From the NCBI RefSeq assembly GCF_014054725.1, contig NZ_CP059563.1, positions 1,949,749-2,013,748 on the forward strand: a stretch of 64,000 nucleotides of DNA. Direction: 5' to 3'. This document shows, one piece after another, positions 56,040 through 59,605 of this stretch. Each line of letters starts with the position of its first letter. The stretch's first letter is position 1. The translations under genes were made by a program, and so were the position numbers. This DNA comes from Conchiformibius steedae. GTDB lineage: Bacteria; Pseudomonadota; Gammaproteobacteria; Burkholderiales; Neisseriaceae. The notes beneath the pieces were generated by a model. That model ran no database searches, was not told the origin of the DNA, and saw only the letters and a list, made by a program, of their open reading frames with translations.

Positions 56040-56870
56040 CTAGAAGCGGTAAACCAAATTATCCTCGTAAACCGCTTGTTGGTTAATATGGGTGGTCAGG
56101 CTGATTTTTTGGTAGTCCTTGAACCTGTCCCAGCCCTCCATCTTATCGCCAATCACCAAATCCAAATACTCAAGTAGCTCGCTGCGCGTTGATGAAAAGA
56201 ACACAAACGGCGGTCGCACCAGCCGCATCAGGCGCAAAAATTGTACCATGCCGAAGTAACCTGCCTTGCGGTAGCTGCCCTGCTGGGTACAGACATAAGG
56301 CGGGTCTAATACCAGCAGGGTTTTGGGGTCGTCCAGGTGCGGCGGAAGCAGCTCGTGATAGGGCTGGCTGACAATCTCAAGCCCGTCTAAATAGTCGGTG
56401 GCATCGGGGTAATCGTGCTGGCGCACGCAGTGGTAAAACTGATGGCTGTATAAATCAGGTAAATCGCGTGCGGTCTTGCCGCTAAACAACAGCCATGCCG
56501 CCAAACAGTCCAAATCCAAGTAACCGCCAAAGCCGTTAATCGCTGCTTCGGCTGCTTTTTTGACCGCATCGGGTAGCCGTTTTTGTCGCGGCTGGTGTTG
56601 AAGCAAATCGGCAAGAATCTGGCGCAGGCGGTTGGTGTCGGGGATATGTGCCAGCCGCTCGGCATAGCCGTCAAAATCATTATAGATAACGCGGGCGGCG
56701 GGCTTGCAGCGTTTGGCGGTGTGGGCGAGTAAGCCGCTGCCGCCAAAGGCATCAATAATGGTCCAGCCTGCACCATCGCCATCTAAATGCTGATTTAATA
56801 GGGATTTAAAGTGGTTTAAAAAGCGGCGTTTTTGCCCTGTGAACGGCAAAGGTGCTTGTGTATATGCCAT
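56040..56870 (-). CDS. D12-class DNA N6-adenine methyltransferase, copy 2 of the prophage
   Basis: 276 residues. Motifs PLPFTGQKRRFLNHF (D12 N-terminal), IDAFGGSGLLAH (SAM binding) and LLVLDPPYV (catalytic DPPY) are in the Dam/D12 order. The middle part is unlike Dam, and the target site cannot be told from sequence. ATG 56870 has an excellent ribosome site (AAGGAGATAT), but an 18-nt motif shared with the other methylase lies 16 bases upstream. It is probably a phage genome-protection enzyme and is last in the com-methylase transcript. Confidence 0.85.
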   Translation of the reverse strand: MAYTQAPLPFTGQKRRFLNHFKSLLNQHLDGDGAGWTIIDAFGGSGLLAHTAKRCKPAARVIYNDFDGYAERLAHIPDTNRLRQILADLLQHQPRQKRLPDAVKKAAEAAINGFGGYLDLDCLAAWLLFSGKTARDLPDLYSHQFYHCVRQHDYPDATDYLDGLEIVSQPYHELLPPHLDDPKTLLVLDPPYVCTQQGSYRKAGYFGMVQFLRLMRLVRPPFVFFSSTRSELLEYLDLVIGDKMEGWDRFKDYQKISLTTHINQQAVYEDNLVYRF

Positions 56871-56886
56871 ATATCTCCTTAATGGC

Positions 56887-56904
56887 GGTACTCACGGCAC
56901 TCTG
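56887..56904 (-). promoter_or_regulatory. Shared 18-nt motif upstream of methylase copy 2
   Basis: GGTACTCACGGCACTCTG (plus strand) differs by one base from the motif before methylase copy 1 and lies at the same 16-base distance from ATG 56870. On the mRNA it can also be read as the end (ECREY) of a 24-codon frame from 56957 whose stop overlaps the methylase ribosome site. Confidence 0.5.
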
Positions 56905-56968
56905 TTGGAAAAACAAACAACCGCCATCGCTGATGACGGTTATCAATAAGCATGATAAAATCTGTCAG

Positions 56969-57769
56969 CTATATATTATTTTTGAACAACGGATAGTTGG
57001 CAATCAGCAGCTCGTTGGCACGCTGGTTGCCGCCGCTGGGTACGCTGTAGCGCAGTTTAACGGGCAGCGTGTGGAAGCCGTCAAATATCTCTCTAATCTG
57101 CGGCACATCGTTGATAGACAGCAGAAATTTACCCTTAATCCCGCGCAATTGGGTTGCCAATGCGCTAAAATCATCACGGCTGAAAATACCCTTGCCGTAT
57201 GCGCCCTCGCAGCCCCAATACGGCGGGTCCACATAGAAAAAGGTATCGTCGGCATCGTAGCGGCGGATAAACTCGCTATACGGTAACCGCTCCAGCATCA
57301 CGCCCTGCAAACGTTGGCGGCTGTCTGTCAGCTCCTGCATCAGCTTTTGTGGGTTGAAGCGTGGCGGACGGTTGCGGCGCGATGCACAGCTCTGCTCTAT
57401 CACGCGCCCACCAAAGCTCAAACGGTGTAAATACAGGAAGCGCACGGCACGCTGTACATCGGTCAGGCTGTCGGGCGGGGTGGCTTGTAGCCGTTGATAC
57501 TCATCGCGGCTGGGCAGCATCTGCTCGGCAAGGCGCAACAGCTCTGGGCTGTGGTTTTGAACCACCCGATAGAGATTGATAATGTCGGCATTGATGTCGT
57601 TTAGGGCTTCGGTGCGGCTGGGGGATTTGTGGAATAGCAACCACGCTGCGCCCGCAAACACCTCTGCATAGCAGTGGTGGGCGGGAATCAAAGGGATTAG
57701 CGTGGAAGTTAAACGGGATTTGCCGCCAAACCAGCCGCGAAGCGGGCTGGCGGGTGGGGAATTAGCCAT
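56969..57769 (-). CDS. D12-class DNA N6-adenine methyltransferase, copy 1 of the prophage
   Basis: 266 residues from ATG 57769 (TAAGGAAACTA upstream). GWFGGKSRL is motif X-like at the N-terminus. EVFAGAAWLLFHK and LNDINADIINLYRVVQ bind SAM, and FFYVDPPYWGCEG holds the catalytic DPPY. It belongs to the same D12 class as copy 2, but the two proteins are too different to be a recent duplication. It follows the com-like gene by 66 bases. In Mu, Com switches on translation of the DNA-modification gene mom; here methylases occupy that position. Confidence 0.88.
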   Translation of the reverse strand: MANSPPASPLRGWFGGKSRLTSTLIPLIPAHHCYAEVFAGAAWLLFHKSPSRTEALNDINADIINLYRVVQNHSPELLRLAEQMLPSRDEYQRLQATPPDSLTDVQRAVRFLYLHRLSFGGRVIEQSCASRRNRPPRFNPQKLMQELTDSRQRLQGVMLERLPYSEFIRRYDADDTFFYVDPPYWGCEGAYGKGIFSRDDFSALATQLRGIKGKFLLSINDVPQIREIFDGFHTLPVKLRYSVPSGGNQRANELLIANYPLFKNNI

Positions 57770-57785
57770 TAGTTTCCTTATTATT

Positions 57786-57829
57786 GGTACTCGCGGCACT
57801 CTGGGTTAAAGGAACTCTGTGGCACTCTG
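57786..57829 (-). promoter_or_regulatory. Shared motif upstream of methylase copy 1 plus a second partial copy
   Basis: GGTACTCGCGGCACTCTG (57786-57803) lies exactly 16 bases before ATG 57769. A related GGAACTCTGTGGCACTCTG (57811-57829) lies next to it. On the mRNA the shared core is CAGAGTGCC. Placement between the com-like gene and the methylase makes a Com-binding or leader-peptide control site the leading guess. Confidence 0.5.
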
Positions 57830-57835
57830 AACGGA

Positions 57836-57952
57836 TTAAAAACTAAAACGGTTCATCACTTTACATTTACGGCATTTAATTTCTACCGTGCCGCCTGTGG
57901 CGCGGGCAAGTAATGACAAACATTTTTTACAACGAAGTTGGCGGTATTGCAT
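57836..57952 (-). CDS. com: Mu Com-like zinc-finger translational regulator
   Basis: A 38-residue protein from ATG 57952 (AAAGGACTGCACAG upstream). Cys8, Cys11, Cys27 and Cys30 form a CxxC-15-CxxC zinc finger (RCKKCLSLL; IKCRKCKVMNRF), as in the Mu Com family. Com of phage Mu binds the mom leader RNA and opens its ribosome site. The basic residues around the knuckles fit RNA binding. It directly precedes two DNA methylase genes on the same strand. It was found by eye and is short, but motif and context agree. Confidence 0.8.
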   Translation of the reverse strand: MQYRQLRCKKCLSLLARATGGTVEIKCRKCKVMNRFSF

Positions 57953-58084
57953 CTGTGCAGTCCTTTTGCGTAGTGTTACAATCGCGCCGCCTAGCTAGGT
58001 GGCGGCATTCTGACGCAGGCTGCTTCTGCTGATGGCGCGGGGCAAATGGTGTTGGTAGCACCGCTCCGCGTTGCCGTCTTTCTC

Positions 58085-58147: not shown

Positions 58148-59605
58148 TTATGTTTCCTGCTCCAACAAGTGATTGAGGATTTTATCGCGCTCGCCGTGTG
58201 CCATTGCTTCAATCCGCAAGGTTTCGCGGTATTCGGCAGCTTCGGCGGCAAGGGTAAACTGTGCCTGAATACCCAGTTCCGCCAGCTTGTCTTTAAGCTG
58301 TTGCGGGCTGACACGGAAAAACTCTTTACGGTGGTTGACCTTGTTTACACGGGCATCGCTAAAGGCGCGGTGCAGTTGTTTTTCCAGCGCGGGCGCATCG
58401 TCTGAATAAATAATGGCGTGTACGTCAAACAGAAACGGTACGGACGCATCGCCCAGCTCACGCACGCGGTCAAGCGGTTCAAGGCGGCGCGTCATGCCGA
58501 TTTTAACCATGTTTTCGCCAAACGAGCCGATATTGGAAATCAGGTAAACGTGTCCCGCACGGGTTTGTTGCGCCATAGACAGGGCGCGTTGGTTTTTCTC
58601 TTCCGCTTCTTTAAGTTTTTGGCTTAAATCTGCCAGTTGGCTTTCGTATTGGGCGCGTTGTTCGGCGGTGGCGCGTTCCAATTCAGCGCGGGCTTTGTCC
58701 ATTGCTTTTTGCAGCATGGACTCTTCTTTGGCGGCATCGCGCATGGCTTTTTCGTATTCTTTACGGGCGCGTTCTTCTTCGCGTGCCTGTTCGCGGATGG
58801 CGCGTTGCTGTTCGCGCTCTTCCGTGCGTAGCGTGTGCAATACGCTTGCCCACTTTAATTCTTCTTGGCGCAGTTGGTAGTAATCTTTACGCACCGCACC
58901 AGCAAAAGCGGCGGCTTTAGCGTGGTATTCGGTCAGCGCGTAAATATCTGCCAGTTCTTGTTTGAGTTTGCCGTAGTTTTCGTGTTTGACTTCGGCAAGC
59001 AGTTGTTCGGCTTTGGTATTGAAAAAATCCAGCAATACTTTGGAAACAGCGGCATCGCCTGATGTGGCATTGCCTGACTGAATGCTGTCGCGCACTTGTT
59101 TGCGGCAGGTTTTCAGCTTTTCGCCTGCGTTGTGGATACTGTATTCTTGGGCGATGTCGTCAATCAGTTGCACGGACGGAATCAGATACTGGTCGCCGTA
59201 ACCGTTGATGCGCCGTTGTATGGCTTGTTCGGCTTGGCGTGTGGCAGATAAGCTGCGCTGGGCTTCGGCTTTGGCTGCTTCCAATTTGGCTTGTGCGGCA
59301 TTTAGTTGTTGTTGGATTTGACGTTGTTTTTCCGATAATTTGTTTTGTTGTGCAGCATATTTGTCCTGCTGTTTTTTCTCGCGCTCTGTCTGTTCGGTTC
59401 GCCATGCTTTGCGTTCATCTTCCAGTTTGCGTTTTTCCGCATCAGCTTCGGCAATCATGGCTTGCTTTTCCTGATGCAGTTTTTTGTTTAATGCGTCCAG
59501 TTTTTCCTGATTGTTTTTAAAGTTCTTTTTGCCCTGAATATACACACCCGCAAAGAACATACCCAACAACAAACCTGCAACAATAATCAACTTAATCCAT
59601 GCCAT
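58148..59605 (-). CDS. Membrane-anchored coiled-coil protein with DUF4041 and T5orf172 (GIY-YIG) domains
   Basis: 485 residues. One N-terminal membrane helix (about 4-24, LIIVAGLLLGMFFAGVYI) is followed by a long charged coiled coil (about 28-130) and a helical DUF4041-like core (about 140-265). A second coiled coil (about 265-350) follows. The T5orf172/GIY-YIG-like domain starts GHVYLISNIGSF.ENMVKIGMT near residue 357 and continues through RVRELGDASVP and the Glu-containing DDAPALEKQLHRAF to the Arg-Glu-Phe-Phe end. Such proteins are frequent prophage cargo. Nuclease activity, and a role in excluding other phages at the membrane, are inference. Confidence 0.85.
   Translation of the reverse strand: MAWIKLIIVAGLLLGMFFAGVYIQGKKNFKNNQEKLDALNKKLHQEKQAMIAEADAEKRKLEDERKAWRTEQTEREKKQQDKYAAQQNKLSEKQRQIQQQLNAAQAKLEAAKAEAQRSLSATRQAEQAIQRRINGYGDQYLIPSVQLIDDIAQEYSIHNAGEKLKTCRKQVRDSIQSGNATSGDAAVSKVLLDFFNTKAEQLLAEVKHENYGKLKQELADIYALTEYHAKAAAFAGAVRKDYYQLRQEELKWASVLHTLRTEEREQQRAIREQAREEERARKEYEKAMRDAAKEESMLQKAMDKARAELERATAEQRAQYESQLADLSQKLKEAEEKNQRALSMAQQTRAGHVYLISNIGSFGENMVKIGMTRRLEPLDRVRELGDASVPFLFDVHAIIYSDDAPALEKQLHRAFSDARVNKVNHRKEFFRVSPQQLKDKLAELGIQAQFTLAAEAAEYRETLRIEAMAHGERDKILNHLLEQET

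Follow-up and report, generated by a model that had tools for sequence, protein, structure and literature searches.

The zinc-ribbon protein Com and its RNA hairpin probably constitute a portable translational switch placed before unrelated DNA-modification enzymes of phages (D12 methylases of two types, C5, N4/N6, Mom and, probably, an ABC-ATPase/GNAT protein), often with one hairpin per gene; the same reading holds that Com and its site have co-evolved to give two or more specificities (GAG and GCG) and that many of these phages have com behind a second, undescribed structured RNA. The window, i.e., the whole analyzed stretch of 64,000 nucleotides, contains one such cassette with com followed by two methylase genes, M1 and M2. 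Here, Com is very probably an RNA-binding zinc ribbon that would control the translation of both methylases by activation via hairpins in their leaders. The interpretation offered by the first-pass annotation, in which a Com-type regulator was coupled to methylases through a shared leader motif, was supported by the computations.

The com gene (57952..57836, minus strand) is an ORF preceded by an AAGGA Shine-Dalgarno sequence and encodes a 38-aa zinc-ribbon protein with a CxxC...CxxC pattern; all four cysteines are present and invariant in alignment A1. The ORF scored 22.8 bits with Pfam PF10122 (cut-off 22.9), and a six-frame search of the window gave 23.9 bits at com, above the cut-off. The protein matched phrog_6417, a translational regulator (E 1.2e-5), and an NCBIfam search returned no name for it. 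It belongs to Com by both the PF10122 profile and the cysteine pattern. The M1 gene (57769..56969, minus strand, 266 aa) starts 66 nt past the com stop codon and encodes a D12 adenine methylase (PF02086, 97.2 bits; phrog_56, 8.8e-82; TIGR00571, 100.8 bits, under that model's cut-off). The M2 gene (56870..56040, minus strand, 276 aa) encodes a second D12-like methylase (PF02086, 22.4 bits at a cut-off of 22; phrog_56, 7.1e-43; phrog_28718, 6e-53). Both proteins contain the DPPY motif and, with the PF02086 profile, are assigned to the D12 methyltransferases, so that Mom (PF25680) is not the gene behind com in the window. The ORF, PF10122, phrog_6417, and PF02086 data agree with the earlier description of a 38-residue Com homolog before two D12 methylases. 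The com-M1-M2 genes, all read from the minus strand, occupy the right end of a prophage that is recognised as Mu-type from a MuA-like transposase, a MuB-like protein, a repressor, and proteins of the portal, head, and tail. The MuA-like and MuB-like genes lie about 34-37 kb away at the opposite prophage end, with late genes in between. Like other Com genes, com of the window sits immediately before a gene for DNA modification, at the right end of its Mu-type element.

Both methylase leaders contain the motif CAGAGTGCCGYGAGTACC on the minus strand (57803..57786 for M1 and 56904..56887 for M2). The two copies are identical in 17 of 18 bases, each is exactly 16 nt before the ATG, and the neighbouring bases differ, as the first-pass annotation had reported; the chance expectation for such a match in the window is 0.03 at three or fewer mismatches. 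The shared motif is not left over from a gene duplication, given the different neighbouring bases and the slight similarity of M1 to M2 (64 aa aligned, E 0.006). The motif contains the Com hairpins of M1 (GAGTGCC-GC-GAGTACC, stem GUGC/GUAC, 57801..57786, minus strand) and M2 (GAGTGCC-GT-GAGTACC, 56902..56887, minus strand). A third copy, overlooked earlier, is the upstream Com site GAGTGCC-ACA-GAGTTCC (57827..57811, minus strand), located 8 nt past the com stop. Each copy is a double half-site GAGNNCC-N2/3-GAGNNCC, and all three fit exactly the SELEX target of the Com from a Haemophilus sputorum Mu-like prophage, NGAGNNCC(N)2-3GAGNNCCNN, with a hairpin closed by C-G (PMC6483171). The SELEX target is an in vitro result, whereas the window sites are natural copies of it. 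According to the pattern search, the core pattern has three matches in the whole 2.2-Mb genome, all in the com cassette; about 90 exact matches were found in 83 family genomes, 29 of them in com cassettes, which represent a tiny share of the sequence. The leaders of both M1 and M2 have, therefore, the sequence-predicted Com-type RNA target expected of genes controlled by Com.

Covariation shows the actual element to be a hairpin, GA-NNNC-C(N2-3)GA-GNNN, in which the two sides of the stem change together. Among 144 distinct elements picked by sequence alone (GA-N3-CC-N2/3-GAG-N3), full pairing at the three variable stem positions was found in 85%, compared to 24% in shuffled sets (maximum 35% in 500 shuffles). 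The stem pairs comprised A-U, G-C, U-A, C-G, and G-U, and the proportion of the last (37/432) points to RNA. The base following the stem was C in 254 of 272 cases. The earlier claim that the target could be read from the two copies holds as far as they match the SELEX site; its fixed CAGAGTGCC core has given way to a hairpin with a variable stem. Where elements occur in tandem, a spacing of exactly 22 nt from start to start prevails (36 of about 54 pairs, e.g., L260, L289, and L343), perhaps for cooperative binding of Com. The element was located 3' of the com stop in 38 cases, a few of which are chance patterns, and within the com ORF in 11. Because most elements in the window's family are past the com stop, coding constraint is not the cause of their conservation, and the motif is not conserved only as a coding sequence.

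The PF10122 profile detected com in 29 of 83 family genomes; used alone, it missed divergent Coms in the genomes G082 and G065, which were recovered via their methylase. Two weak Com matches (L077 and L078) were discarded as false. The family cassettes are com-M1, com-M2, com-C5-M1, com-C5-M2, and com-M1-M2, nearly always with one hairpin per methylase. With start codons of relatives picked by rule, the strict hairpin was present in 40 of the 45 distinct methylase leaders of related cassettes, thus confirming the motif before methylases outside the window; most exceptions were swapped or decayed pairs. The distance from hairpin to start in these cassettes ranged from 8 to 63 nt, the 16 nt of the window not being universal. 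A wider set, taken from viral contigs and named bacterial genomes, comprised 212 distinct Com loci. The strict hairpin was located 3' of com in 163 of these loci, counted as distinct regardless of phylogeny (one sequence per cluster was taken only in the per-cluster tests), and was absent from the tested interval in 49; the controls gave 0 on the reverse strand, 2 upstream, and 1 farther downstream. The enzymes behind com fell into the groups D12-M1, N4/N6, D12-M2, Mom, C5, and ABC-GNAT, and 33 of 46 enzyme clusters (60% identity) had the hairpin. The coupling of Com to methylases, proposed at first pass for this cassette (adenine methylases instead of Mom), is shared with other prophages, and no other arrangement was found as often. 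Across the loci compared, five or more kinds of phage DNA-modifying enzymes appear to be under the control of the Com-hairpin pair. Phage records with both com and the hairpin include SuMu and Aeromonas, Vibrio, Stenotrophomonas, and Pseudomonas PAN70 phages; on visual comparison, the PAN70 enzyme behind com resembles Mom. In Escherichia phage Chuche, three of the four hairpin pairs are formed.

Unknown genes behind a Com hairpin are likely to be DNA-modification enzymes. A protein of about 375 aa with ABC-ATPase and GNAT-acetyltransferase parts is encoded behind com, mostly with a Com hairpin, at six loci (L175, L176, L178, L282, L290, and L394) and is a candidate new DNA-modification enzyme; its structure model was poor (mean pLDDT 47) and was not used as evidence.

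The association of the hairpin with com was evaluated on 68 distinct M2-type leaders selected by the enzyme alone, without regard to com. Both com and the hairpin were present in 31 leaders and neither in 35; thus, 66 of 68 were concordant (p=5e-17). The two discordant leaders were L430, with a hairpin and com farther upstream, and L432, with com and a degenerate site. Tetranucleotide or homopolymer repeats, which are typical of phase variation, occurred in 17 of the 35 com-less M2-type leaders and in 0 of 32 when com was present. These repeats (AAGC, CAAA, or G-tracts) are located near the start at L429, L434, L438, L441-L443, L446, L456-L459, L463, L464, L473, L477, L479, and L480. Their distribution suggests that phase variation replaces Com control in com-less M2-type methylases, so the same enzyme type is, by its leader sequences, under either of two different controls.

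Five distinct Coms (L049, L118, L135, L411, and L412), a small and partly related sample, have a CRRC second knuckle, and in all five, the sites carry GCG in place of GAG. A regular double-GCG site was seen with no other Com, and most of the remaining, about 195, have GA sites. Such correspondence is the pattern expected of a protein-RNA pair changing together. An arginine before the first cysteine was ruled out as the specificity determinant, as L049 has it and yet its sites are of the GCG type; the CRRC knuckle is preferred because it fits all five GCG Coms. Natural protein-RNA pairs with covarying sites, including the change from GAG to GCG, provide material on how a tiny zinc ribbon reads RNA. 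The gene behind the two GCG-type sites at L049 (G003) is a 50-aa ORF (MHPTKKAPGKNGFKYRQQYGIIIICSSEQ...) that is not a methylase.

The computations establish the site and its structure, show that it goes with com, and reveal that it is complementary to the ribosome-binding region; the binding of Com, activation, and timing are what we infer. The cassette at the right end of the prophage would probably be transcribed late. Each methylase leader would bear the small Com hairpin, and without Com, nucleotides of the hairpin, mostly of its 3' half and flank, would pair with the Shine-Dalgarno/start region and keep the gene off. Com on the hairpin would prevent or melt this inhibitory pairing, so that the ribosome could start, and the methylase would be made only after Com has built up; the Com-hairpin tie would predict the timing of phage methylase production. 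Activation is favoured because of the analogy with Mu and the closed leaders. The predicted accessibility of the ribosome-binding region in 120 leaders was 0.43, less than the 0.51 obtained with shuffled upstream sequence. Against the model, the fold energies of the single window leaders were unexceptional (z -0.9 to -2.4). The complementarity of the hairpin 3' half to its own ribosome-binding region was 12.84 versus no more than 11.06 after swapping and, with one sequence per enzyme cluster, 12.21 versus 9.98 +/- 0.45 (0/1000).

In the predicted folds of the window M1 and M2 leaders, the site pairs its CC with the Shine-Dalgarno GG, leaving a loop of 8 nt, and its GCCG with the UGGC of the start region. 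This shared fold register would explain the equal 16-nt distance despite the differing spacer bases. Within the upstream site, the stretch AGUUCCUU is complementary to the Shine-Dalgarno AAGGAAACU of M1, and this pairing closes M1 when the site is included in the predicted fold. Enforcing the Com hairpin raised the mean predicted accessibility from 0.42 to 0.52 in M1-type leaders and from 0.49 to 0.61 in C5 leaders. In the model of the window M2 leader, the start codon stays paired (GCCAU:AUGGC) even with the hairpin enforced; therefore, holding the hairpin cannot be all that Com does in this leader. The enforced hairpin by itself opened the start codon in the mean of the leaders and in the short M1 leader, yet failed to do so for M2 and for the M1 leader with the upstream site, so plain competition is not proposed as the whole mechanism. 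A strong terminator-like hairpin of the intrinsic type (56944..56916, minus strand; 13 pairs and a T-rich tail) is located between M1 and M2. As read from the sequence, its 3' arm GAUGGCGGU can pair with ACCGCCAUU, which follows the M2 Com hairpin and adjoins the Shine-Dalgarno, so that Com may be coupled to attenuation between M1 and M2.

Other readings of the motif have lower probability. Com could bind the same hairpins as a repressor that blocks the ribosome and keeps methylase low in the lysogen, an unlikely reading; the hairpin ends 16 nt before the start in the window and the site is 8 to 31 nt away in many leaders, a typical repressor position, but it is 45 to 63 nt off in many other loci, a repressor would not need the closure predicted for ribosome-binding regions without Com, and Com of Mu activates (PMC6483171). 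It is very improbable that the motif serves as a DNA operator or transcription signal on which Com or another factor works. Com-type zinc ribbons do resemble nucleic-acid binders generally (weak Pfam matches), but the element is strand-specific, with none of 212 loci having it on the reverse strand, its stem tolerates G-U pairs, there is scant promoter room between site and start codon, and the published target of Com is RNA. Least probable of all is that the two copies lack a regulatory role and stem from recent duplication of a leader segment or from conservation of the com coding sequence. This would account for the near identity (17/18) within the window cassette and for the sites inside com in long Coms and in Mu; however, other cassettes differ in stem sequence with the pairing kept, 38 elements are past the com stop, and enzyme homologues without com are also without the site. 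Translational activation by Com through the leader hairpins remains the preferred reading.

The closest known system is com-mom of phage Mu, where com likewise sits at the right end of the phage, immediately before the modification gene. There, Com binds a hairpin beside the structure holding the mom start codon and melts the inhibitory structure of the mom mRNA; the Mu site GAAUGCC-UGC-GAGCAUCC is laid out like the window sites, which also stand beside a (predicted) start-hiding structure (PMC6483171). Unlike Mu, the window has two D12 methylases in place of Mom and three copies of the site, located outside the com ORF. The 62-aa Com of Mu has a disordered C-terminal tail, which is absent from the 38-aa Com of the window and from many equally short relatives. 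The tail was not taken as defining Com because it is dispensable for RNA binding, although it was suggested as a possible need for the rearrangement (PMC6483171). The available part of that paper discusses mom alone and names no natural methylase target. Like the window, SuMu, Aeromonas phiARM81ld, Stenotrophomonas Smp131, and Escherichia Chuche have com just 5' of a methylase gene, with the hairpin in most of them; their records give gene names only, unlike the site-based reading of the window. The open-access papers propose no target site or control for these pairs: the SuMu paper lists Com with no target (PMC3447690), and the absence of a com-mom module was noted elsewhere (PMC4553209). Descriptions of Com in the open-access literature link it only with Mom (PMC6483171); on the basis of that literature, priority is not claimed with certainty. 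Treated so far as the private activator of Mom, Com now has a target readable in well over 100 phage leaders and seems to be a switch that phages use for DNA modification in general, beyond helping the Mom of Mu.

Directly 5' of com, a conserved structured RNA element (58081..57973, minus strand) was predicted, consisting of a three-way junction and then a palindromic hairpin. This RNA of about 105 nt has an outer stem CGGC/GCCG, an inner helix rich in compensatory changes, a GCAG/CUGC hairpin, and, after it, the hairpin with a variable palindromic centre (AGCT, CGCG, CTAG, TCGA, or GTAC); compensatory changes were found in 9 of 21 pairs. The covariance model R1 scored the window copy, which was in its training set, at 67.9 bits (E 1.7e-17). 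The Rfam search gave no family matching the leaders or this RNA, and no match to it was found in Mu or SuMu. In the family genomes, 52 matches were obtained in 33 of 83, mostly adjoining com (L034-L075, L149-L207, L209, L210, L252, L272, L413, L432, and L440). The RNA is retained at two loci of one genome (L059 and L060, G054), where com is continuous with a longer ORF and no methylase gene follows; these are apparently two copies of a decayed cassette. Just 5' of the com region in the window, a 485-aa protein (58148..59605, minus strand; phrog_1847) is encoded, whose N-terminus is hydrophobic and whose long middle part is charged; it also has a T5orf172/MUG113 domain.
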